A program made the position numbers and the translations under genes. The notes beneath the pieces are model-generated. The model was not told the origin of the DNA and did no database searches. It worked only from the letters and a program-made list of their open reading frames with translations. Shown here piece after piece: positions 51,145 through 64,000 of a stretch of 64,000 bases of DNA. The first letter of the stretch is position 1; each line of letters begins with the position of its first letter. This stretch comes from Ruminococcus flavefaciens (GTDB taxonomy: Bacteria; Bacillota; Clostridia; Oscillospirales; Ruminococcaceae), in assembly GCA_023662725.1 (NCBI GenBank), contig JAMPIL010000001.1, positions 518,258 through 582,257 of the forward strand, read 5' to 3'.

Positions 51145-51791
51145 TGTATTACATTTGTAAAGCGCTGGTCTGGATATATATGCATATCGCCTATAATCTG
51201 CACTATGTCGGACGAAAAAATATCCCCAAAAATACTACCGTTATCTATGCTTCAAACCACAGAAGCTATGCTGATCCACCGCTTCTCGGTGCAGGAGCTA
51301 AAGGAAAATTCGCTTTCATGGCTAAAGAGGAACTCTTCAGGAACAAGCTTTTCGCATGGCTTATACGCTCTCTCGGAGCGTTTCCCGTCTCACGGGGCAA
51401 GGGCGATACTTCCACTATTGATACTGCTGTCGAGAGGCTTAACAGCGGAAGAAGTCTTATGATTTTCCCGGAGGGAACCCGCTCCAAGGACGGAAAAGTC
51501 GGCAAAGGACATACCGGAGCAGCTCTTATTGCTGCAAGATCGGGAAAACCCGTTATTCCCGTAGGCATCGTTTACGGAAAAAAACTCCGTTTCCGCACAA
51601 AGCTCACTGTTGAATTCGGCGAACCCATAATGCCGGAGGATTACTCAGAGATTTGTGATTCCCCTAATCCAAGACAGCTCGTTAAGCTTAAAAACCGATA
51701 TATGGAGGAGATAAAGCGTCTCGTTGAGGGTGAACCTAACACGGAAAGTTCTGATACTCAAGCTTCAGGAGGTGTAACTGATAATGAGTAA
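51144..51791 (+). CDS. plsC: 1-acyl-sn-glycerol-3-phosphate acyltransferase
   Basis: The 215-residue enzyme has the catalytic HX4D in ASNHRSYADPP near residue 40 and the substrate-binding FPEGTRSKDGKVGKG near 110, with a hydrophobic N-terminus for membrane association. It makes phosphatidic acid from lysophosphatidic acid. The ATG overlaps the cmk stop, and its stop overlaps the ispH start by eight bases, so translation is likely coupled. Confidence 0.94.
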   Translation: MYYICKALVWIYMHIAYNLHYVGRKNIPKNTTVIYASNHRSYADPPLLGAGAKGKFAFMAKEELFRNKLFAWLIRSLGAFPVSRGKGDTSTIDTAVERLNSGRSLMIFPEGTRSKDGKVGKGHTGAALIAARSGKPVIPVGIVYGKKLRFRTKLTVEFGEPIMPEDYSEICDSPNPRQLVKLKNRYMEEIKRLVEGEPNTESSDTQASGGVTDNE

Positions 51792-53754
51792 GGTTACTGT
51801 TGCGGAATCTGCCGGATTCTGCTTCGGAGTTGACCGAGCCGTTAAAATGGTTTACGGTGAGCTTGAAAAAACCACAAAAGTTGCAACTCTCGGTCCGATA
51901 ATCCATAATCAAGATGTTGTAAACGATATGCAGGCAAAAGGCGCAAGAATTATCAGCAGTGTTGACGAACTTTCAGATGATGAAACTGTTGTTATACGTT
52001 CTCATGGAGTCGGAAGAGATATTTATGATCAGATTGCAGCAAAAGGAAACAGAATGCTTGATGCAACCTGCCCGTTTGTCTCAAGAATACACAAAATCGT
52101 CGCTGAAAAATCAGCCGAAGGTTACTTCATTCTTATTGCCGGAGACGCTTCCCACCCAGAAGTTCAAGGAATCGTTGGTCATTGTGACGAAAATTGCCTC
52201 GTATTCAAGGACAATTTTGAGCTAAAAGACTTTTTTGAAAAAAAATACAAAAATTTAGAAAAAAAGCTTGCAATTGTGGCTCAAACAACGTATAATATAG
52301 TAGTATGGGATGAGTGTTTAAACGTGATTCCGAAAAATGATTCCGATATCGTTATATTTGATACCATCTGCAACGCTACCGATACAAGACAATCCGATGC
52401 GGCTGAACTTGCAAAAAGCTCGGACATAATGATCGTTGTCGGCGGACGGCACAGCTCGAATACTGTTAAGCTTTTCGAGGTTTGCAGCCGATATTGCAGA
52501 ACTTATCACATAGAAAATTCGGACGAGCTTCGGTCTTTAAAGCTTCCCGCCGCTGAAAAAATCGGCATTACCGCCGGAGCGTCTACGCCGGCTTATATAA
52601 TCAAGGAGGTACAAACCACTATGGCAGACAATGAGAATATCGCAGAAATTCAGGATGAGGATATCGATTTTGCAGAAGCAATCGATCAGTCATTCAAAAA
52701 AATACATACAGGAGAGAAAGTCAAGGGCATTGTTGTAGGCGTTGATAACGCAGAGATTACTGTTGATCTCGGTACAAAGCACACAGGCTATGTTAAGCTT
52801 GAGGATCTTACAGACGATCAGGCTAAGAAGCCCGAGGATATTGCTAAGGTAGGCGATGAGATCGAGCTTATCGTTATCAAGGTAAACGACGCAGAAGGTA
52901 CTGCTCAGCTTTCCAAGAAGAAGGTTGACGAACAGGCAGGCTACGATACTATCGTTAAGGCTTACGAGGAGAAAACAGTTCTCGAAGGTACTGTTCAGCA
53001 CGTCGTAAATAAGGGAGTTACTCTTACTTACCTCGGCGTAAGAATCTTCATTCCTGCTTCACACACAGGTCTTCCAAGAGGAGCAGAGCTTGACGAGCTT
53101 CTCAAGAAGAAGGTTGAATTTATGATAATCGAAGTTACTGAGGGCAAGAAGAGAGCTGTCGGATCTATCAAGGCTGTTCAGAACGCCAAGAAGGCTGAGG
53201 CTCAGGCTAAGTTCTGGGATAACGCTAACGTTGGCGACGTTTATGTTGGTAAGGTTAAGTCTCTTACAAACTTCGGCGCATTCGTTGATCTCGGAGGAAT
53301 CGACGGTATGGTTCATATTTCCGAACTTTCATGGAAGAGAATCAAGCACCCAAGCGAAGTTGTTGCAGTTGGTGATACTCTTGAGGTTTACATCAAGGAT
53401 CTCAACAGTGACGAAAATAGAATTTCTCTCGGCTTCAAGAAGGCTGAGGACAATCCTTGGGAAATCTTCAAGACCAGCTACAATGTTGGAGACGTTGTTA
53501 AGGCAACTATCGTTTCTATCACAAGCTTCGGCGCATTCGCAAGAATTATTGACGGAATCGACGGTCTTATCCACATTTCTCAGATCGCTGACAAGAAAGT
53601 TGAAAACGTTAAGGACATCCTTTCCGTTGGTGATGAAGTTGACGTTAAGATTATTGACATCGATACAGACGCTAAGAGAATCAGCATTTCTATCCGCGCT
53701 CTTCTTGAAACAGAGGAAAACGACGAAGAAGTTTCTGAAGAAGACGCTGAATAA
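51784..53754 (+). CDS. ispH-rpsA: IspH - ribosomal protein S1 fusion
   Basis: Residues 1-277 are 4-hydroxy-3-methylbut-2-enyl diphosphate reductase, with the three cluster cysteines in SAGFCFGVDRA (12), DATCPFVSRIHK (near 95) and TICNATDTRQSD (near 193), making IPP and DMAPP. From about 290 four S1 domains follow, for example VKGIVVGVDNAEITVDLG, VYVGKVKSLTNFGAFVDLGG and VKATIVSITSFGAFARIIDG, as in ribosomal protein S1. The fusion is known in Clostridia. A perfect AAGGAGGT (52603-52610) stands ten bases before an in-frame ATG at 52621, exactly at the junction, so S1 may also be made alone. The S1 half switches to AAG-rich, highly expressed codon use. Confidence 0.95.
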   Translation: MSKVTVAESAGFCFGVDRAVKMVYGELEKTTKVATLGPIIHNQDVVNDMQAKGARIISSVDELSDDETVVIRSHGVGRDIYDQIAAKGNRMLDATCPFVSRIHKIVAEKSAEGYFILIAGDASHPEVQGIVGHCDENCLVFKDNFELKDFFEKKYKNLEKKLAIVAQTTYNIVVWDECLNVIPKNDSDIVIFDTICNATDTRQSDAAELAKSSDIMIVVGGRHSSNTVKLFEVCSRYCRTYHIENSDELRSLKLPAAEKIGITAGASTPAYIIKEVQTTMADNENIAEIQDEDIDFAEAIDQSFKKIHTGEKVKGIVVGVDNAEITVDLGTKHTGYVKLEDLTDDQAKKPEDIAKVGDEIELIVIKVNDAEGTAQLSKKKVDEQAGYDTIVKAYEEKTVLEGTVQHVVNKGVTLTYLGVRIFIPASHTGLPRGAELDELLKKKVEFMIIEVTEGKKRAVGSIKAVQNAKKAEAQAKFWDNANVGDVYVGKVKSLTNFGAFVDLGGIDGMVHISELSWKRIKHPSEVVAVGDTLEVYIKDLNSDENRISLGFKKAEDNPWEIFKTSYNVGDVVKATIVSITSFGAFARIIDGIDGLIHISQIADKKVENVKDILSVGDEVDVKIIDIDTDAKRISISIRALLETEENDEEVSEEDAE

Positions 53755-54118: not shown

Positions 54119-55708
54119 TTAATCTAACTTCACAAATCTTCTTACATCCCCTGCTTTGCCAATAAACATCGACTTAGGTCTTGCCCAAACCTGAGAATCG
54201 CCGAGGGATTTATAAATTACAAGCTCCTCGTTATTTTCGCTGTGACGTGCAACTGCCATCACTTCGTACTCACCGCCCTTGAAATGACGGTATTTAGCTC
54301 CGATAACGATTTCTGTATCCTTATCTTCCGGAATCTGAGTCTGAACTGCTTTTTGCTCATTATTTACAATATCGTCAGAAACGATTATCATTGCAGAATA
54401 AGGAGGCATCTTGACGTAAGCATTTCCGTTTTCAACCGAGATCTGCTTTGCTCCAACAACGTCAACGAGCGCAGGAAGATGAGTTCCGAAACTGAGATCG
54501 AACTCATAATCGCCAAGATTAAGAGCAACATATACGGTCTGATCGCCCTGAGTCTTTTTGAAAAGAAGCTGCTGATTCGTTATCATTATTCTCTCATAAC
54601 CGCCTGTACGAAGAGCCGGATATGCACGATAAATTCTGCCGAGTTTAACAATATGATTATAAAGTCCGGTGTTTTCCCTTTCCATATCCTGAAGGTGAAG
54701 ACATGGACGAAGATTATCATCAGAATTATTCTCCTTACGTCCCTGAACACCATATTCGCTTCCATAATAAATCGACGGAATACCCGGCATTGCATACATA
54801 AGAGTATAAATAAGCGGCAAGTATGCCTGATTGGTAACCGTGCTTGCAAGACGATTTACATCATGATTATCAACAAAGTTATAAAGGTTGATTCCCCTGT
54901 AAATTCCGCCGTTTGCACCGGACTGACGGTTAATAGAGTAGTCAATCTCAAAGTAGTTTTTGTCGTTGTGCGAGGAATAAAGTCCTTTGTAGCATTCGTA
55001 ATTTGTAACGCTGTCGAGCATTTCAGGATTAGCCCAGCGGTTGTAATCACCGTGGATAATTTCACCCATAAGCCAAAAGTCCGGACGCTTGCTCTTACAG
55101 AAGTTTCTGATCCTCTTGAAGAAATCAAAATCAATGCAATCAGCAGCATCGAAACGAATACCGTCAATTTTAAACTCCTCTATCCAATAATTTACAGCGT
55201 CAATAAGGTGATCGCATACGCCTACGTTTCTGAGATTGAGTTTTACAAGGTTATAGTGACCGTTCCAGCCCTCATACCAGAACGGATCGCCGCATGGTGA
55301 AGGACCGCCAAAATTAAGGTTCTGGAACCAGTCGCAGTAACCACTCCCCTGACCTTTTTCCTGAATATCAACAAACTGCGGAAATTTTCTTCCAACATGA
55401 TTGAAAACTCCGTCAAGAATAACTCTGATGCCGTTTTCATGAAGTTTATCACAGATATTTTTGAATGAATTATTATCTCCGAGACGACGGTCGATCATTT
55501 TATAATCTGTAGTATCGTAGCCGTGTTCAACAGACTCAAAAACAGGTCCGAAGTACACTGCGTCAACGTTCATTTCCTTGAGATGAGGAATCCAATCCAA
55601 CACCTTATCAAGACGGTAAACAACCTCACCTCCGTCATTGAACTTAGGCGCACCGCAGAATCCCAGCGGATAGATGTGATAAATTATTGCGTTTTCATAC
55701 CAATTCAT
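54119..55708 (-). CDS. GH13 alpha-amylase-family enzyme with C-terminal DUF1653 domain
   Basis: The 529-residue protein has the GH13 barrel with all conserved regions: LDGVFNHVG (near 100), GIRFDAADCI with the nucleophile Asp (near 190), WLMGEIIHGD with the acid Glu (near 215) and FVDNHDVNR with the third acid (near 282). No signal peptide is present, so it acts on maltodextrins inside the cell. After the C-terminal beta domain, residues about 463-529 form DUF1653: IGAKYRHFKGGEYEVMAVAR, ELVIYKSLGD and WARPKSMF. That is normally a free-standing small protein, so the fusion is unusual. ATG 55708 has AGGAG seven bases upstream. Confidence 0.92.
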   Translation of the reverse strand: MNWYENAIIYHIYPLGFCGAPKFNDGGEVVYRLDKVLDWIPHLKEMNVDAVYFGPVFESVEHGYDTTDYKMIDRRLGDNNSFKNICDKLHENGIRVILDGVFNHVGRKFPQFVDIQEKGQGSGYCDWFQNLNFGGPSPCGDPFWYEGWNGHYNLVKLNLRNVGVCDHLIDAVNYWIEEFKIDGIRFDAADCIDFDFFKRIRNFCKSKRPDFWLMGEIIHGDYNRWANPEMLDSVTNYECYKGLYSSHNDKNYFEIDYSINRQSGANGGIYRGINLYNFVDNHDVNRLASTVTNQAYLPLIYTLMYAMPGIPSIYYGSEYGVQGRKENNSDDNLRPCLHLQDMERENTGLYNHIVKLGRIYRAYPALRTGGYERIMITNQQLLFKKTQGDQTVYVALNLGDYEFDLSFGTHLPALVDVVGAKQISVENGNAYVKMPPYSAMIIVSDDIVNNEQKAVQTQIPEDKDTEIVIGAKYRHFKGGEYEVMAVARHSENNEELVIYKSLGDSQVWARPKSMFIGKAGDVRRFVKLD

Positions 55709-55775
55709 ATACAATCTCCTTAAAATATAATAATTATTCTCTTAACTTATCTTCATTTAGAATAATATATTTAAT

Positions 55776-56369
55776 TTATTTATTGCTTCCTTCAAGAAAA
55801 TAGGAAGCCTCCATATCAGCAACGTTCAGTGCAAACGCAAGTGGATACATTTCAAGAGCTTTGCCGATAGTATTTTTATCTTCAATTCCGGAAAAACCCA
55901 TGTGATAGCGTATTGCAAATGCCTCCTCACGGCTTAGACGTGCGTCGCCGTAGAAAAATCCCGAAATTATGTAGACAGATTTCTCCCCATGACCATACGG
56001 CAGCGTATCATTTATAGTGTAATATGGAACTTTTTCCCAAACTCCGTCATCGTTTTTTCTGTTCCGGTAATCGACTGTATAAAAATTCACTTTACAAAGA
56101 TCATGCAGCAGCGCCACAATTGCTATAGTTTCCTCGGAATATTCCATGCCGTACATTTCTTTTACCCTCGGACGTGAAAGATAATCTTTCAGGCAATGAT
56201 AAACATTTAAACTATGTTGAACCAGTCCGCCCTCATATGATCCGTGAAAACGTGTACTGCTTGGAGCAGTAAAAAAGTCGCTCTTTTTGAGATACTCCAA
56301 AAGCCTGTCTGCACCTTCACGCTTAATATTTTCATTGTAAATAGAGATAAACTCCTCCTGCGGTGACAT
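55776..56369 (-). CDS. HD-domain hydrolase
   Basis: The 197-residue protein has an HD phosphohydrolase pattern: GGLVQHSLNVYHCL (His, near 48), IVALLHDLCKVNFY (the HD pair, near 85), GHGEKSVYI (His, near 126) and ALNVADMEASYF (terminal Asp, near 183). It resembles HD domains acting on nucleotides or RNA, such as that of YhaM, but lacks a nucleic-acid-binding OB domain. AAGGAGG precedes the ATG. It stands 67 bases before the GH13 gene and may share its transcript. Substrate unknown. Confidence 0.82.
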   Translation of the reverse strand: MSPQEEFISIYNENIKREGADRLLEYLKKSDFFTAPSSTRFHGSYEGGLVQHSLNVYHCLKDYLSRPRVKEMYGMEYSEETIAIVALLHDLCKVNFYTVDYRNRKNDDGVWEKVPYYTINDTLPYGHGEKSVYIISGFFYGDARLSREEAFAIRYHMGFSGIEDKNTIGKALEMYPLAFALNVADMEASYFLEGSNK

Positions 56370-56441
56370 TTATTTCCTCCTTACGATATATTTTATCAAA
56401 AATTTTACAATATACAATCCGTTGACTGACGGAACAATATA

Positions 56442-56470
56442 ATTATACCACATTATTATAAAATATTCAA
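56442..56470 (-). promoter_or_regulatory. Promoter of the HD hydrolase gene
   Basis: TTGAAT (56465-56470), a 17-base spacer and TATAAT (56442-56447) on the minus strand. Confidence 0.78.
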
Positions 56471-56544
56471 TAGAAAAAAGTAATCTCGCATAATTTTTGT
56501 GCATTTCCAACAAATTACTGAAACAATTTCATACGCTTGCTCCG

Positions 56545-56571
56545 AAAAAAGGGAGCTGTATATCAGCTCCC
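56545..56571 (-). terminator. Terminator of the murL-murD transcript
   Basis: On the minus strand GGGAGCTG and CAGCTCCC pair around ATATA, followed by TTTTTT, ten bases after the ligase stop. Confidence 0.92.
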
Positions 56572-56580
56572 ACCAAATTT

Positions 56581-57921
56581 TTATTTTAATTCCCTGACAA
56601 GCTTTTTGAAAACGTCCCCACGCTCTTCAAAATTCTTGAAAATCCCATAGCTTGCCGCAGCCGGCGACAGAATGCAGCTCATTCCGCTTGGAGTAATTTC
56701 AGAGGCAAGTTTAACGGCGTCTTCAAGATGAGGAACATAGTGAACACGCTCCGGAATGTTAAAGCTCATCTCGCTAATCATATCAAAAACACGTTTGCCC
56801 GAAGCTTCCATGCAGATGACATTCACATCTGAACCGCTGAGAAAGTCTACAAGATCGCTGTAGTCGATACCTCTGTCCATACCGCCGACAAGAATCGTTC
56901 CAGCCTGTGGAACGCTTTTAACGGCTTCAATAGCAGTCGCACAGGCAGTTGAAATAGAGTCGTCATAATAGCGAACCCCATTTACAGTATCAACGTATTC
57001 CAGTCGATGTGCAAGCGGAGAAAAACTGCAAAGAGCCTTTTCAACGTCAGTTTTTTCAACATAAAACTCTGCAACAGCACACGCAATCGCAATATTGTAA
57101 TGATTATGAACTCCCAGCAGCTTGATTTTTTCAACAGGGATATCATAGGTTACACCATTTCGGATTATTTTTCCGTCGTGAACGTAAATATCCGCATCAA
57201 GATCGACCGCAGAAACGGTGTAAATGTACTGCTCACCGTTTTCGGGAGCAATTTCCGAATTTATCAGCAGACAATCATACTCTTTCTGGTGAAGGTAGAT
57301 ATTTTTCTTGGCATTATAATATTTTTCCATAGTACCGTAATGATCAAGATGTTCCTCATAAAGATTGAGGAAAACAGCTTTTTCCGGCGAAACGGTCATA
57401 TATTCAAGCTGATGACAGGAAAGTTCGCAAACCACGACAGTATCCTCTTTCATGTTCTCGGCTATATCGAAAACGGGAATTCCTATATTTCCAGCTATCC
57501 TGCAATCGACTCCGGACTCTTTCAGAATATGATAGATCAGCGATGTTACAGTACTTTTCCCCTTTGTTCCGGTGATTCCGATTATCTGCTCTCGGAAAAC
57601 AGTGAAGAAAATCTGCGTTTCAGATGTTATTTCACATTTCAACTCCTGCGGACTTTTTTCAAGTACGATTCCCGGACTTTTAAAAACCATATCAAAATCA
57701 TCAAGACAAGCCTGATAATTTGCTCCTGTGATAAGCTGAACATTTTCCGGAATATTATTAAGATTTCTGTCAATGGGATTCAAGTCGGCTATGGCAACAG
57801 TTTCCGAATCACAATATTTTTTCAGTATATTGTAAGTTGACTTTCCCTCTCTTCCGAAACCAAGAATACAGATTTTCTTTCCTGCGGTATATTCCCTGAT
57901 ATATTCGACAAATCTATTCAA
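56581..57921 (-). CDS. murD: MurD-family UDP-MurNAc-L-alanine:glutamate ligase, possibly MurD2-type
   Basis: The 446-residue Mur ligase has the N-terminal UDP-binding fold (KKICILGFGREGKSTYN), the ATP loop ITGTKGKSTVTSLIY near residue 117, CELSCHQLEYM near 165, FLNLYEEHLDHYGTMEKYY near 180 and the carbamylated-lysine region AKKNIYLH. The C-terminal domain contains HRLEYVDTVNGVRYYDDSIST and GGMDRGIDY. It adds glutamate to UDP-MurNAc-L-Ala. The start overlaps the MurL-like gene by four bases (ATGA), so the two are made together. With MurL as partner the amino acid added would be L-Glu (MurD2) rather than D-Glu. Sequence alone does not separate the two here. Confidence 0.88.
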   Translation of the reverse strand: MNRFVEYIREYTAGKKICILGFGREGKSTYNILKKYCDSETVAIADLNPIDRNLNNIPENVQLITGANYQACLDDFDMVFKSPGIVLEKSPQELKCEITSETQIFFTVFREQIIGITGTKGKSTVTSLIYHILKESGVDCRIAGNIGIPVFDIAENMKEDTVVVCELSCHQLEYMTVSPEKAVFLNLYEEHLDHYGTMEKYYNAKKNIYLHQKEYDCLLINSEIAPENGEQYIYTVSAVDLDADIYVHDGKIIRNGVTYDIPVEKIKLLGVHNHYNIAIACAVAEFYVEKTDVEKALCSFSPLAHRLEYVDTVNGVRYYDDSISTACATAIEAVKSVPQAGTILVGGMDRGIDYSDLVDFLSGSDVNVICMEASGKRVFDMISEMSFNIPERVHYVPHLEDAVKLASEITPSGMSCILSPAAASYGIFKNFEERGDVFKKLVRELK

Positions 57922-59300
57922 AGCAAACGCTCCATTTCTTTAGTCAAAATTTTCTTAAAATCCTCCGGCAGAAGATTTTCGCTGCTGAAATAACGGCAGT
58001 ATTCATCTTTCAGAGCGTCTATCTGCTCGGGATGATACGATCCACGCTTTTTGTATTCCTCGAAAAGAAGAGGAAGCTCCTCGCCCTTTTCCTCAAGCTG
58101 ACGTATAGCAAGCGAAACGGCAAGATTTACCTCGCCTACGCTGCCCACGCACTCAAAAGGTTTGTGATCAGACTCGCCGATAAGTTCAATAAAATATTCC
58201 AGCATTTTTTCATCGTCCGCAATATATCTTCCGAAAATATCTTCAAGTTCTTTTCGTGAAAGAAAAGGCGACAGAATAAGGCTGACAAAAAGACATTTCG
58301 GACACTCTCCGCACCATATATCGGGAGAAACCTTGCTTCCGAGATTACAGCTTCTGAAAACCGGAAGATATTTTTTATATGCCGTAAACATTTTTGCGAT
58401 CTGAAATTCCGTTAGCGGACGGAGAAAGCTGAAATAATAAATTCCTGTTTTAAGATATTTTTCCTCGTATTCATGGAAATCGCATTCAAATTCGAAGCTT
58501 TTGGAGTATTGATGATTTACTTCCTGTCCAACAACCGTACTTTCGTTTGCGCTTGATTCGTTTGAAAGAACAATATATTTCAAACCGTTCAGATATGCCG
58601 TGATTTCGGCAGAAAATGCCACTACGGAAGAAAACGGAGTATGTCCGTTAAGGAATCCTGCATTGTTAAGATTTATAAGCGAACGGTCAAACTTTCGTGA
58701 CGCCGTAATAAGGGCAGATTCATCAAGTCCGGCAGCTTCGACAGTCGCACTTATCGAGCAGCGCTTATTTATCGCATAGCAGCGGCAATTCATTCCGGCG
58801 TTCACAAGAGTTTCGATAGTCAGCGCAGAATCCTTTCCTCCGCCTATCGGAACCAGACATCCCCCGTTTTTTCGAGCCTCCGCTACAGAAGTGCTGACAA
58901 ACTTTCCCCTGGACACAATTTTAACAAAGCTCTCTTTATCGGCGTTTATTCCGTTAACATAAAAAAATTCACCAAGTCCTGCGAACCAGAGTTTCTTCCA
59001 CCACGATATCTGTTCGCCGTGCAGCTCGCCGCATTCAACTATCATTTCAGGCGAACAAACGGCTTTCCAATAGCTTACCGCTTCTGCCATACCAAGCGAA
59101 AAAACAAGACGTTCAAAGGTCAGATCTCCGGAAACGCTTACATTTTCAGGCTTTGGAAAACTCCAACCCGGATAGAAATCCGCAAGACCGGGTATCGAAA
59201 ATTTATAGCTTACGTCAACCTTACCGGCGGATTCGGTTATTTCGTAAGAATGATATAAAAAAACGGGATATTCTCTTTTGAATTGTTCGTATTTACTCAT
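57918..59300 (-). CDS. murL: MurL-like UDP-MurNAc-L-alanyl-L-glutamate epimerase
   Basis: The 460-residue protein has a PP-loop-like GGCLVPIGGGKDSALTIE near residue 145, followed by CYAINKR, LNGHTPFSSVVAFSAEIT (near 220) and VVGQEVNHQYSKSFEFECD (near 250). Cysteines follow in DIWCGECPKCLFVSL (near 335). The layout, length and pairing with a MurD ligase agree with MurL, described in Xanthomonas, which uses ATP to epimerise the L-Glu of UDP-MurNAc-L-Ala-L-Glu to D-Glu. It lies 20 bases after a DtxR-type regulator gene. The assignment is from memory of the family, without a search; another PP-loop function is possible. Confidence 0.72.
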   Translation of the reverse strand: MSKYEQFKREYPVFLYHSYEITESAGKVDVSYKFSIPGLADFYPGWSFPKPENVSVSGDLTFERLVFSLGMAEAVSYWKAVCSPEMIVECGELHGEQISWWKKLWFAGLGEFFYVNGINADKESFVKIVSRGKFVSTSVAEARKNGGCLVPIGGGKDSALTIETLVNAGMNCRCYAINKRCSISATVEAAGLDESALITASRKFDRSLINLNNAGFLNGHTPFSSVVAFSAEITAYLNGLKYIVLSNESSANESTVVGQEVNHQYSKSFEFECDFHEYEEKYLKTGIYYFSFLRPLTEFQIAKMFTAYKKYLPVFRSCNLGSKVSPDIWCGECPKCLFVSLILSPFLSRKELEDIFGRYIADDEKMLEYFIELIGESDHKPFECVGSVGEVNLAVSLAIRQLEEKGEELPLLFEEYKKRGSYHPEQIDALKDEYCRYFSSENLLPEDFKKILTKEMERLL

Positions 59301-59320
59301 TGTTTCCTCCGGAAAATAGC

Positions 59321-59710
59321 TTATTTACCCAGCCTCTTTTCTTCCAAAAGCGTATAATAATGCGCTTTAAGAAGCTTAAAGGTCTCCTCAGATATATCGT
59401 GCTCGATCTTGCAAGCATCTTCAGTAGCCGTGTCGTGCTTTACTCCAAGCAGCATGAAAAACTCGGATATAATCTTATGACGGTCATAAATATTTTCGGC
59501 AACTTCTCTGCCTCTTTCAGTGAGAGTTATATGATTATCTCCATCGACGGAAACCAACCCGTCATCTTTCATTTTTTTAAGGACGATAGAAACGGTCGGT
59601 CTTGAATAGCCGAGATAAGAGCATATATCTATTGCATGAACATCAGGCTGCTGCTGAGATAAAATCAGGATGGTTTCAAGGTAATTTTCAACTGCTTCGG
59701 TAATAGCCAT
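59321..59710 (-). CDS. DtxR/MntR-type metal-dependent regulator
   Basis: The 129-residue protein begins MAITEAVENYLETILIL and has a winged helix (VHAIDICSYLGYSRPTVSIVLKKM) with the wing LVSVDGDNHITLTERG. A dimerisation/metal region follows: AENIYDRHKIISEFFML, ATEDACKIEHDISEETF, with His and Glu ligands typical of MntR. It lacks the SH3-like third domain of DtxR. It probably senses manganese or iron. The start is ATG 59710 with AGGAG upstream; an earlier ATG at 59737 lies before that site. It heads the transcript with murL and murD. Confidence 0.9.
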   Translation of the reverse strand: MAITEAVENYLETILILSQQQPDVHAIDICSYLGYSRPTVSIVLKKMKDDGLVSVDGDNHITLTERGREVAENIYDRHKIISEFFMLLGVKHDTATEDACKIEHDISEETFKLLKAHYYTLLEEKRLGK

Positions 59711-59803
59711 TTTTCTTCTCCTTAATCGTTTCTGCAATACATACCCTCCGCTACTACAAATATAGCAGCAGGTATAACAGAAGCGTTTTTTATAACATAT
59801 TAT

Positions 59804-59832
59804 ATTATATCATACTTTCATGAAAATTACAA
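59804..59832 (-). promoter_or_regulatory. Promoter of the dtxR-murL-murD transcript
   Basis: TTGTAA (59827-59832), a 17-base spacer and TATAAT (59804-59809) on the minus strand. Confidence 0.75.
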
Positions 59833-59881
59833 CATTTTTTCAAAGCTTTCCCATAAGTTTCAAAAAAATCGTTTCTCCCTA

Positions 59882-59910
59882 TTGCAATTCTGCCAATATT
59901 ATGATATAAT
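59882..59910 (+). promoter_or_regulatory. Promoter of the aldolase gene
   Basis: TTGCAA (59882-59887), a 17-base spacer and TATAAT (59905-59910), about 58 bases before the ATG. Confidence 0.82.
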
Positions 59911-59967
59911 AACATTATTAGGGGTGCTTATCACCTTTTAAATGAAAATTCAGGAGGAATCTAAATT

Positions 59968-60831
59968 ATGTTAGTTTCAGCTACAGAAATGCTCCAGAAA
60001 GCAAGAGCAGGAAAATATGCAGTAGGTCAGTTCAACATCAACAACCTCGAATGGACAAAGGCTATTCTCCTCACCGCTCAGGAGCTTAACTCTCCGGTTA
60101 TCCTCGGCGTTTCAGAGGGTGCAGGCAAGTATATGACAGGCTTTAAGACTGTTGCAGCTATGGTTAAGGCTATGGACGAGTCTCTCGGAATCACAGTTCC
60201 TGTTGCTCTTCATCTTGATCACGGTTCATATGAAGGATGCTACAAGTGCATCAAGGCTGGATTTACTTCTATCATGTTCGACGGTTCTCACTTCCCGATC
60301 GATGAAAACGTTGCTAAGACTACTGAGCTTGTAAACGTTGCTCACGGTCTCGGACTTTCTATCGAAGCAGAAGTAGGCGCTATCGGCGGTGAAGAAGACG
60401 GCGTTGTAGGCAAGGGCGAGTGTGCTGATCCTGCTGAATGCAAGCAGATCGCTGATCTCGGCGTTGATTTCCTCGCAGCAGGAATCGGAAACATCCACGG
60501 CGTATATCCTGATAACTGGGAAGGCCTCAGCTTTGAAACTCTTGAAGCTATCAACAAGACAGTAGGCGATATGCCTCTCGTTCTTCACGGCGGTACAGGT
60601 ATTCCTGACGACATGATCGCAAAGGCAATCTCACTCGGCGTAGCTAAGATCAACGTAAATACAGAGTGTCAGCTCGTATTCGCAGACGCTACAAGAGGCT
60701 ACATTGAGGCTGGCAAGGATCAGCAGGGTAAGGGCTTTGACCCAAGAAAGCTTCTCGCTCCTGGTTTTGAAGCTATCAAGGCTAAAGTTAAAGAGAAGAT
60801 GGAGCTTTTCGGCAGCGTAAACAAGGCTTAA
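59968..60831 (+). CDS. fba: Class II fructose-1,6-bisphosphate aldolase
   Basis: The 287-residue enzyme has the zinc ligands of class II aldolases: VALHLDHGSYEGC with Asp/His near residue 84, SIEAEVGAIGGEEDG near 132, IGNIHGVYP with His near 180 and LVLHGGTGIPDDMI with His near 208. It splits fructose-1,6-bisphosphate in glycolysis. AGGAGG precedes the ATG. Codon use (AAG, GGC, ATC-rich) differs from the neighbours and fits very high expression. Tagatose-bisphosphate aldolase is an alternative in this family but less likely for a single-gene unit. Confidence 0.93.
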   Translation: MLVSATEMLQKARAGKYAVGQFNINNLEWTKAILLTAQELNSPVILGVSEGAGKYMTGFKTVAAMVKAMDESLGITVPVALHLDHGSYEGCYKCIKAGFTSIMFDGSHFPIDENVAKTTELVNVAHGLGLSIEAEVGAIGGEEDGVVGKGECADPAECKQIADLGVDFLAAGIGNIHGVYPDNWEGLSFETLEAINKTVGDMPLVLHGGTGIPDDMIAKAISLGVAKINVNTECQLVFADATRGYIEAGKDQQGKGFDPRKLLAPGFEAIKAKVKEKMELFGSVNKA

Positions 60832-60853
60832 TTAGTTAACCTATAAAAACTAT

Positions 60854-60888
60854 AATGGCAGACGCATAAGGTGTCTGCCATTATTTTT
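60854..60888 (+). terminator. Rho-independent terminator after fba
   Basis: AATGGCAGAC (60854-60863) and GTCTGCCATT (60873-60882) form a ten-pair stem, followed by ATTTTTG. Confidence 0.92.
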
Positions 60889-60907
60889 GATTGTGTGAGG
60901 TATAATA

Positions 60908-61414
60908 ATGTTTCAAAAAATTATCGTAATCGGAAGTTCCGGTTCAGGAAAGAGCGTTTTTTCAAGAAAACTGAGGAATATTACCGGTCTGCCTCTTCAT
61001 CATCTGGACTTGCTTTGGCATAAACCTGACAAAACAAATTATACTGCCGAAGAATTTGATAAAAAGCTTCAGGATATTTTATCGTCTGATAAATGGATAA
61101 TAGACGGAAACTATCAGCGCACTCTTGAAACTCGTCTTGCAAGCTGCGATACGGTATTTCTCTTGGATTATCCGATTAATGTCTGCCTTTCGGGAGCAGA
61201 ATCAAGAATCGGAAGAAAAAGAGACGATATGCCTTGGACAGAAACTGAATTAGATGACAAATTCAGACAATGGATAATAGATTTTCCCAAAATTCAACTG
61301 CCTGCCATTTATCAGCTATTAAAAAAGTATTCAGATAAAACGATAATCATTTTCAAATCAAGAGAAGAATCCGAATCATATTTAGATCATATTCAAACAA
61401 AAATGAATTTATAA
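60908..61414 (+). CDS. P-loop adenylate-kinase-like protein (FlaR/topology modulation type)
   Basis: The 168-residue protein begins FQKIIVIGSSGSGKSVFSRKL with a Walker A motif at residue 9. LPLHHLDLLWHKPD, WIIDGNYQRTLETRLASCDTV and FLLDYPINVCL follow, a pattern of AAA17/FlaR-like proteins often named topology modulation protein. The role is probably a small-molecule kinase, but none is proven. TGTGAGG stands before the ATG. It overlaps the convergent GNAT gene by six bases. Confidence 0.82.
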   Translation: MFQKIIVIGSSGSGKSVFSRKLRNITGLPLHHLDLLWHKPDKTNYTAEEFDKKLQDILSSDKWIIDGNYQRTLETRLASCDTVFLLDYPINVCLSGAESRIGRKRDDMPWTETELDDKFRQWIIDFPKIQLPAIYQLLKKYSDKTIIIFKSREESESYLDHIQTKMNL

Positions 61415-61916: not shown

Positions 61917-64000
61917 TTACCGTATGAAATCTTTCGGATCAAGCGAAGCTATAAAACTAAGCTTAAACTTCTGTATCATAAGTGCATCCTCGTTGGTTAC
62001 GCCGCTTTTACCGTTATCATAAACGTCAGCGTTAAGCATTCCCTGAGCTGTAATGTGACTTGGATCAGAACCATTTATACCATACTTATCAGGATTGGAA
62101 TTAGCCTGCATTATCAGAACTGCATCCGACATATCAACCTTGTTATCACAGTTAGCATCACCCCAGACAATATCGTCTTCCGGTGGAGCAGTTGTTGTAA
62201 AAGTAGTCGTTTCGGAAGTAGTTGTAGTCGTAATTGATGTAATTGACGATGTATTGGTAGTAGTTGTTGCATATGATGATATTGTCGTTGTAGTTATGGC
62301 AGTAGTTGTCGTAGTCATCATGGTTGTAGTAGTTGTTGTAGATGTTGTCGTAGTAGTTGTCGTCGTGGTTGTAGTTGTCGTTGCAGTGGTAGTTGTTGTC
62401 GTTGTTGTGGTAGTCGTGGTAGTCGTGGTAGTTGTTGTCGTTGTCGTTGCAGTGGTAGTTGTTGTCGTTGTTATAGTTGTTGTGGTAGTCGTGGTAGTTG
62501 TTGTCGTTGTCGTTGTTGTGGTAGTCGTCGTTGTTGTTGTAGTTGTTGTGGTAGTTGTGGTAGTCGTCGTTGTTGTTGTAGTTGTTGTGGTAGTTGTGGT
62601 AGTCGTCGTTGTTGTAGTTGTTGTTGTTTCGGGTTCAGCCGTTTTGTTTGTGTAAACGGTTATAGAATCAATTTTATAATTGTTATTGCTCATCCACCAG
62701 AATCCGATTTTTAAATCGCCATACTTATAGTCGATCATTTCAGCACGGTCAGGATCAACGTTCCAAACTGCTGTTGCTTCGTTACTGTTGAAATATTCAT
62801 TAAAATCGACCTGATGCCATTCTCCGCCCGTCATTGTACCAAATGCGCCGTTCCATGTACCTATAGTGCTGTTTGATGAGATCTTCACTTCAACTCTTGA
62901 AGCAGTTTCGCCGTCAGGAATATTAAAATCAGACCATTTCCACCCCGGCATATTATCGCTGAAATCACTGTTTGAAAGATTCGGGGTGATCACATATGTT
63001 CCCGCCTCACCCTTAACAGCAGAAGTTGTCGTTGTAGTATTTACACTGCCATTAGTTGAGGTCGTGGTTGTAGTTGAAGTTGCCGGCTTTGTTCCGGTAT
63101 ATTCGGGATCGGATGTGTTGCCCTTTACTTCGGGAATCGTTGAAGGATCAACGGTTTCCCCGGTTTTATATGCTGAATAAAGACCGGCTGCTGCCCCAAC
63201 GAAAACCGAGTTATAATCAAGAGCAACTTCATTTGCCTGATAATCTGCTACGGAATCATTATACGCTCCGCTTGAATTGGTCGGACCGCCTACCAAAGCT
63301 CCGGTAAGAGTGTGACCATTGCTCGAATATATCGTTTGTCCGTTAAATTCATCATATGTGCTATAGCCGGATGCTCCTCTGTGGTGGGGATATTTCGCCG
63401 AATTATCAGCGTATCCGACAACAAAACAGGTATCAGCCGGATTATCTCCGAGAAGATAGTTCATCTGCCCTTTTGCCCAGTTATTGTAATTCACCTGAGC
63501 TGCCGGATACTTTGAAGCAACAAGCGCAGTTAGCTGTACGCCTGAATTGTATCGTGTGCTGCCCCATTCAGATTCAAAATAGAAATTATCCGAATTAGTA
63601 CCCTTAGATTCAAGAAGCTGAGTTACCTTTCTCCAGTCAGCAGTCGAACCCGTTATCTCGGCTTGAAGAACCGCTGCTCCGACGCTTACATTATCCCACG
63701 AGAAAGTTGTATAAATGCCATACTGGCAGTTTTGATTCATATAATCATTCAGAAACGATTTGTATTTATCATCCTTTGTCGCAAGATAGAGCCATCCTGC
63801 TGCCCATCCCTGTTCGTCCTTGTAATCGGACCATGCAGAATTATAATAAAAGCCCGAAGGACCGTCTGTTGCACACTGATTATATTTTGTCGAAAACTCA
63901 AAAAGAGCCTTTGCGTATTTCAGATCTTCAGCATTGCCAAAATTGATATAGTTCGCAGCAAGAGCGGCTGCATATTCAGCAGCGATATCGCTTGCACCGC
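61917..64000 (-). CDS. Dockerin-bearing GH9 glucanase (partial; N-terminus beyond window edge)
   Basis: About 694 residues are visible. The first part is the GH9 catalytic core: AEYAAALAANYINFGN, WAAGWLYLATKDD, INYLLGD-type MNYLLGDNP, the catalytic histidine in YPHHRGASGYSTY and the proton donor Glu in DYQANEVALDYNSVF. A Thr-rich linker follows, then a beta-rich module of about 120 residues (ITPNLSNSDFSDNMPGWKW, GIGFWWMSNN-like IGFWWMSNNNYKID). A linker of almost pure threonine, about 140 residues, comes next, then a dockerin (WGDANCDNKVDMSDAVLIMQ, SGVTNEDALMIQKFK). It cleaves cellulose or related beta-glucan outside the cell and docks like the GH26 enzyme. Confidence 0.93.
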   Translation of the reverse strand, partial: GASDIAAEYAAALAANYINFGNAEDLKYAKALFEFSTKYNQCATDGPSGFYYNSAWSDYKDEQGWAAGWLYLATKDDKYKSFLNDYMNQNCQYGIYTTFSWDNVSVGAAVLQAEITGSTADWRKVTQLLESKGTNSDNFYFESEWGSTRYNSGVQLTALVASKYPAAQVNYNNWAKGQMNYLLGDNPADTCFVVGYADNSAKYPHHRGASGYSTYDEFNGQTIYSSNGHTLTGALVGGPTNSSGAYNDSVADYQANEVALDYNSVFVGAAAGLYSAYKTGETVDPSTIPEVKGNTSDPEYTGTKPATSTTTTTSTNGSVNTTTTTSAVKGEAGTYVITPNLSNSDFSDNMPGWKWSDFNIPDGETASRVEVKISSNSTIGTWNGAFGTMTGGEWHQVDFNEYFNSNEATAVWNVDPDRAEMIDYKYGDLKIGFWWMSNNNYKIDSITVYTNKTAEPETTTTTTTTTTTTTTTTTTTTTTTTTTTTTTTTTTTTTTTTTTTTTTTTTTTITTTTTTTATTTTTTTTTTTTTTTTTTTTTATTTTTTTTTTTTTSTTTTTTMMTTTTTAITTTTISSYATTTTNTSSITSITTTTTSETTTFTTTAPPEDDIVWGDANCDNKVDMSDAVLIMQANSNPDKYGINGSDPSHITAQGMLNADVYDNGKSGVTNEDALMIQKFKLSFIASLDPKDFIR
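62195..62636 (-). repeat. Simple ACN-codon repeat encoding a poly-threonine linker
   Basis: About 440 bases are an imperfect GTN trinucleotide repeat on the plus strand (ACN on the minus strand), with longer units such as GTAGTCGTGGTAGTTGTTGTC recurring. It encodes the linker before the GH9 dockerin. Synonymous codon variation keeps it from being a perfect microsatellite, but length polymorphism is likely. Confidence 0.9.

Follow-up and report, generated by a model that had tools for sequence, protein, structure and literature searches.

A dtxR–murL–murD operon of Ruminococcus flavefaciens predicted to supply peptidoglycan D-glutamate by an alternative route

Gene organization of the locus

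The 64,000-nucleotide stretch of the Ruminococcus flavefaciens genome analyzed here (the window; GenBank assembly GCA_023662725.1, contig JAMPIL010000001.1, positions 518,258 to 582,257) carries three minus-strand genes in the order dtxR–murL–murD, which very likely encode an alternative route to the D-glutamate (D-Glu) of peptidoglycan, probably the only such route of this bacterium. In Xanthomonas oryzae, the route consists of MurD2 and MurL (XOO_1320 and XOO_1319), and the pathway has been confirmed in vitro also for Micromonospora and Salinispora (PMC8788868). MurD2 would join L-glutamate (L-Glu) to the peptidoglycan precursor, MurL would then epimerize the attached glutamate in place from L to D, and the pair would serve in R. 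flavefaciens as the sole source of D-Glu, replacing glutamate racemase.

The first gene, dtxR (59321 to 59710, minus strand), encodes a DtxR/MntR-type metal-dependent regulator of 129 residues, and its ATG start is backed by conservation. Its end lies 20 bases from the ATG start of murL (57918 to 59300, minus strand; 460 residues), which is followed by murD (56581 to 57921, minus strand; 446 residues, TTG start), whose product scored 327.8 bits with TIGR01087 (cut-off, 212). The four-base overlap of the two mur genes described in the first-pass annotation was confirmed (minus strand, murL stop and murD start within TTGA, 57918 to 57921, read from the sequence) and was found again in many relatives. 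The three genes are flanked by a predicted sigma-70-type promoter with an extended -10 element (59804 to 59832, minus strand; TTGTAA, a 17-nucleotide spacer, and TG-n-TATAAT; 10 of 12 in the scan, with the TG) and by a predicted intrinsic terminator (56545 to 56571, minus strand; a stem at 56551 to 56571 followed by a T-run, with a fold of -15.3 kcal/mol and a z of -2.6). These two sites coincide with the limits of the region singled out in the first-pass annotation (56545 to 59832). Promoter-like and terminator-like sites were both more common in the window (18 and 9) than in shuffled sequences (9.1 and 3.1), so that a scan match by itself says little. An alignment of 19 upstream regions from the R. 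flavefaciens group, the window's among them but without the short L052 and the broken L059, nevertheless showed the promoter's TTG and TATAAT unchanged in every row, and little besides the promoter was conserved upstream of dtxR. This conservation, together with the enclosing promoter and terminator, makes it likely that dtxR–murL–murD form one transcript. An Rfam search of positions 55500 to 61000 returned no family.

Identity of the MurL homolog

A MurL-like identity had been proposed for the 460-residue protein, and the profile search bore this out. The sole significant NCBIfam match was NF041275 (MurL_Xanthmoales; E 9.9e-72, residues 14 to 396), compared with an E of 0.11 for the next best. 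The score of 241.8 bits falls short of the 700-bit equivalog cut-off of this model, and we classify the protein as a MurL homolog outside the Xanthomonadales equivalog; Xanthomonas sacchari MurL scored 836.5 bits and a Pseudonocardia homolog 323 bits, the latter also under the cut-off. Similarity to annotated MurL extended over most of the protein, and identity to the X. sacchari protein was 36% across 323 residues. An alignment of 45 sequences from four phyla (the 43 of alignment A2 plus X. sacchari and Pseudonocardia alni, covering Bacillota, Bacteroidota, Gammaproteobacteria, and Actinomycetota) contained 40 invariant positions. The invariant motifs GGG-x-DS, NE-x-S, NHQ-x-SK, and KPF-x-CVG and the five invariant cysteines (318, 330, 333, 336, and 384) are all present in the window protein. 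Pfam gave only weak matches to MurL members. The commonest, DUF6395, turned up in 40 of 43 at a best E of 9.8e-5, and the window protein matched it under the cut-off (E 0.046). No solved structure matched the window protein along its full length. In a quick tree, long branches led to X. sacchari and Pseudonocardia, and the MurL from a bin titled "Alistipes" grouped among the Bacillota. Because the sole matching MurL profile is tuned to Xanthomonadales, murL genes may go unnamed.

The same protein had also been called PP-loop-like on account of a GGGKDS motif and a C-x-x-C cluster, both of which are present (residues 153 to 158; C318, C330, C333, and C336). As a local motif this description holds, with a TtuA match over just 47 residues (E 8.5e-4); beyond it, only weak local matches to the PP-loop ATP pyrophosphatase superfamily were obtained. 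MurL resembles QueC (7-cyano-7-deazaguanine synthase), an enzyme that activates a carboxylate with ATP, in combining a PP-like motif with a C-terminal four-cysteine cluster. The QueC profile matched 5 of the 43 aligned members (best E 0.0064), and a profile comparison with Escherichia coli QueC, at a probability of 6%, aligned the CG-x-C-xx-C cluster of MurL to that of QueC; with E. coli AsnB and GuaA the probabilities were 0.1% and 2%. Weak and local as it is, this resemblance is a lead rather than a sign of kinship. A different PP-loop enzyme (QueC-, TtuA-, or TilS-like) adjoining murD by chance would account for the GGGKDS motif, the aligned cysteines, and the local TtuA and QueC matches, yet the distance between the MurL profile and the next best match, along with residues beyond the PP motif that are common to the X. 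sacchari and Pseudonocardia homologs, makes such an identity extremely improbable. Searches for a PP-loop family that would fit better than MurL found none.

The Pseudonocardia homolog is encoded on a P. alni plasmid (L129:3854-5254), where it is annotated as a "hypothetical protein"; no murD was annotated or found within the stretch of this plasmid examined. Two further Pseudonocardia plasmids also carry a MurL homolog.

D-Glu enzymes of the host genome

The host genome (3.11 Mb, a 70-contig draft, 99.96% complete) was searched for murI, dat, and a second murD, as the first-pass annotation had suggested, and none was found above cut-off. The best MurI match reached 12.2 bits (E 0.14; cut-off, 146.65), with a profile that matched 11 of 14 control genomes, eight of them above cut-off, and Pfam PF01177 (Asp_Glu_race) returned nothing at E up to 10 while matching 14 of 14 controls. 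The single match to the D-amino-acid transaminase profile (42.7 bits; cut-off, 277) was the branched-chain aminotransferase IlvE. The host thus appears to be without a glutamate racemase or a D-amino-acid transaminase, in searches that did not extend to DapF-type or pyridoxal phosphate (PLP)-dependent moonlighting racemases.

One MurD scored above cut-off in this genome, namely the window gene. The remaining Mur-ligase matches were MurC and MurE, above their cut-offs, and MurF-like and MurT-like proteins below the NCBIfam cut-offs; MraY and MurG were above theirs. This inventory bears on whether MurD2 and MurL might act in a side branch, such as cell-wall recycling or a secondary glycopeptide, rather than in the main peptidoglycan pathway. 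With a single MurD above cut-off alongside MurC, MurE, MraY, and MurG, the pair should serve the main route, and we regard a side branch as highly improbable. The original proposal of a route used instead of, or beside, the racemase is therefore better narrowed to "instead of," given one MurD above cut-off and no MurI.

Distribution of MurL and MurI

Across 197 genomes of the family, MurL was detected in 19 and MurI above cut-off in 163. None of the 19 MurL genomes had MurI above cut-off, versus 163 of the 178 MurL-less genomes (Fisher p 1.4e-17, uncorrected for kinship). Six of the 19 had sub-cut-off MurI matches (E 1.3e-9 to 3.9e-6), and the other 13 had none at 1e-5; G167 and G181 were placed among the MurI-negative genomes at 1e-5 by elimination. 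The same pattern was observed outside the R. flavefaciens group, in 50 further MurL genomes taken from 80 MurL loci, the best of at least 578 stretches encoding relatives in genome_contigs. These genomes, with titles including Lachnospiraceae, Erysipelotrichaceae, Bacilli, Oscillospiraceae, Clostridia, and Bacteroidales, had no MurL contig equal in length to one of the family set and are mostly metagenome bins, some of whose titles may be wrong. MurI was above cut-off in none of the 50 and below it in 12, the strongest match (78.6 bits) coming from a Bacteroidetes-titled bin. The nearest relatives by MurL among the best 80 loci were R. flavefaciens and Ruminococcus sp., with up to 75% identity.

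Two nearly complete family genomes of 1.1-1.2 Mb (G003 and G125) had neither a MurI match at E 1e-5 nor MurL. Phage carriage of murL-murD was considered for a "Bacteriophage sp." record (MT836755.1; L130:1-8893) and rejected: the record also codes for EF-G, DUF3048, and an M14 peptidase and is probably a mislabeled bacterial contig. A pattern search of viral_contigs matched 65 stretches, none of which codes for a relative.

Pairing, residues, and phylogeny of the MurD ligases

The association of murD with murL extends well beyond the window. In 17 of the 19 family genomes, window included, the two genes adjoin, with no more than 50 bp of gap or overlap, and murD lies within the murL locus in 75 of the 80 genome_contigs loci. 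At one of these loci, a single open reading frame (ORF) encodes a MurL-MurD fusion of 900 residues (L110:1524-4226, contig CASDVX010000150.1; MurL at residues 18-395 and MurD at 463-888). Among the five loci lacking murD (L084, L085, L087, L101, and L122), four belong to genomes with one MurD elsewhere, and the fifth genome had no MurD at E 1e-40. Displacement of murD from the mraY-murG cluster was rejected as a mark of MurL, MurL-less relatives also carrying murD away from mraY, as judged from coordinates (for example, G117 and G013).

The ligases also differ in residues that matter for specificity in X. oryzae. In the MurD2 of that species, E197 and R358 set the specificity for L-Glu, and the double change E197D/R358K yields a D-Glu ligase (PMC8788868). 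At the sites equivalent to D182 and K348 of E. coli, both the window MurD and X. sacchari MurD2 have Glu and Arg. Every murL-linked MurD with a letter at the K348 position had Arg (90 of 90; 91 rows including one fragment, 89 distinct, some near copies), and 79 of these had Glu at the D182 position; MurDs unlinked to murL in MurL genomes had the Glu-Arg combination in six of six cases. In contrast, the MurDs of MurL-less relatives had Lys at the K348 position in 50 of 50 cases, with Asn (48) or Asp (2) at the D182 position. These 50 comprised the 30 best-scoring and 20 of the 21 lowest-scoring listed, and three of the former (G003, G125, and G128) came from genomes that also lacked a MurI match.

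The phylogeny of the ligases followed the same division. In an unrooted tree of 105 of 134 rows (29 redundant, fragmentary, or duplicate rows had been removed in advance, and L110 was represented by its MurD part alone), the MurL-associated MurDs and X. sacchari MurD2, itself a long branch, lay together across a branch with a support of 97. The 30 MurDs from MurL-less relatives fell into a single clade (99), on the side of the branch that also holds E. coli. It is likely that murL and murD2 traveled together, replacing murI and murD.

Weighing the alternative route

The homology of both proteins, the pairing of their genes, the single MurD above cut-off, the failure to find MurI or any other D-Glu enzyme searched for, the MurD2-type residues, and the shared grouping in the tree together support the MurD/MurL route that had been suggested at the outset, and on these sequence-based grounds we consider it very likely. 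Neither of the two outcomes that the first-pass annotation had named as refuting applied: no PP-loop family fitted better, and the ligase carries the MurD2-type Glu and Arg in a genome where murI was not found. The substrates, direction, and ATP use of MurL and MurD2 in this bacterium, as well as their essentiality, are what we infer from the same comparisons.

Like the Xanthomonas system, the locus comprises a homologous adjacent pair, murL then murD as in X. sacchari, with no MurI found and with Glu and Arg in the ligase. It differs in that the window MurL and MurD are 36% and 27% identical to the X. sacchari proteins, that Ala and Tyr replace Pro and Phe in the window ligase, that dtxR stands ahead in the R. 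flavefaciens group, that one fusion occurs, and that the pair is found here in Bacillota and Bacteroidota. With the canonical MurD/MurI route it shares a ligase of the MurD family, above the TIGR01087 cut-off, but MurI was not found, the ligase falls across the MurD tree, and Arg replaces Lys at the K348 position.

The window MurD might instead be an ordinary D-Glu ligase, supplied with free D-Glu by a moonlighting DapF or PLP enzyme or by uptake in the rumen or gut, with the 460-residue protein doing something else. DapF does act as a glutamate racemase in Chlamydia trachomatis (PMC5885031), and family genomes with neither MurI nor MurL do exist (such as G003 and G125). Such an arrangement would nevertheless leave unexplained the exclusion between MurL and MurI, the murL-murD pairing, the fusion, and the Arg/Lys split, and we consider it unlikely.

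Several observations weigh against the MurL/MurD2 interpretation. The host genome is a draft, the racemase searches had the limits given above, and MurL stays below its equivalog cut-off. Among 398 genomes sampled across the phylum, MurL was found at E 1e-10 solely in the genome of the window (1 of 398), which means that the route is patchy at phylum level. Neither MurI above cut-off nor MurL was present in 15 of the 178 MurL-less family genomes, some of them incomplete, so the absence of MurI alone does not imply MurL. Both the residue and the exclusion patterns track clades and are hence not independent events. At the D182 position, 11 of the 90 linked MurDs have Asp, and E197D alone altered X. 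oryzae MurD2 (PMC8788868). Arg is likewise found at the K348 position in the D-Glu-using MurD of Streptococcus mutans (PMC8788868), so Arg alone is no proof of L-Glu use. X. oryzae P433 and F435 are Ala and Tyr in the window ligase, although changing these residues left the specificity of X. oryzae MurD2 unaltered (PMC8788868). With Thr in place of Lys at the K319 position, E. coli MurD can use L-Glu and S. mutans MurD is slightly improved (PMC8788868); Ile at this position was considered as a mark of MurD2 and discarded as evidence, since all 50 MurDs of MurL-less relatives have it as well.

A metal-dependent regulator ahead of murL

Both Pfam domains of the regulator, Fe_dep_repress (PF01325) and Fe_dep_repr_C (PF02742), were above their cut-offs, and NCBIfam MntR was below its own (94.7 bits; cut-off, 153). 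The first-pass annotation had placed this gene at the head of the transcript, which stands as anatomy, but dtxR was found ahead of murL solely in the R. flavefaciens group. The cases are the window, G019, G135, and 20 loci of the group (L047-L065 and L103), two of which, L051 and L054, are repeats of G019 and G135. At one of these (L059:2190-2551), the upstream dtxR is broken, with tblastn giving two pieces. The remaining 16 family loci (among them L032, whose contig begins just before murL) and the other 60 genome_contigs loci, two of which are also titled Ruminococcus (L078 and L084), showed no dtxR near murL.

In the motif DACxxEH, the regulator has Cys where E. coli MntR has Glu, as do all 21 aligned intact rows (19 distinct loci). 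Cys at this position is typical of the DtxR/IdeR (iron) type. No conserved palindrome that could serve as a DtxR operator was seen beyond the promoter when the 19-region upstream alignment was inspected by eye. One speculative and rather doubtful extension is that the MurL/MurD2 route in Ruminococcus is tied to a metal, perhaps iron, through a structural or catalytic metal or iron-sulfur site on the invariant cysteines of MurL, with the co-transcribed DtxR matching enzyme supply to iron. If so, cell-wall D-Glu synthesis would be under metal control.

Other features of the window

Elsewhere in the window, a single ORF (51784-53754) joins IspH/LytB to four S1 domains, and another region (54119-55714) encodes an alpha-amylase with a DUF1653 tail. 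The product of an ORF at 61917-63740 has a very long threonine run and a dockerin-like end, which is presumably to be expected in a builder of cellulosomes.

Implications

The chemistry of this route is already known; what is new is the range of its hosts, the MurL-MurD fusion, and the operon with dtxR. MurL/MurD2 has been described as confined to relatively few genera, among some Gammaproteobacteria, Alphaproteobacteria, and rare actinobacteria (PMC8788868); cyanobacteria, an amoeba, and a plant-pathogenic fungus have been added as carriers of low-similarity orthologs (PMC5808125). Bacillota and Bacteroidota do not appear in the host lists in the available portions of these two papers, and no report of MurL in either phylum was found among the titles and abstracts listed from the open-licence PMC literature. 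The route has also been put forward as a target for narrow-spectrum antibiotics (PMC8788868). In a survey of Roseburia, R. intestinalis appeared to be without murI, and it was suggested that this species needs D-Glu from outside or has an altered wall (PMC7478625). If the predicted route operates, MurL/MurD2 inhibitors could also hit commensals, namely gut and rumen Bacillota and some Bacteroidota-titled bins, and the MurL route would offer a testable explanation for gut commensals that lack MurI.

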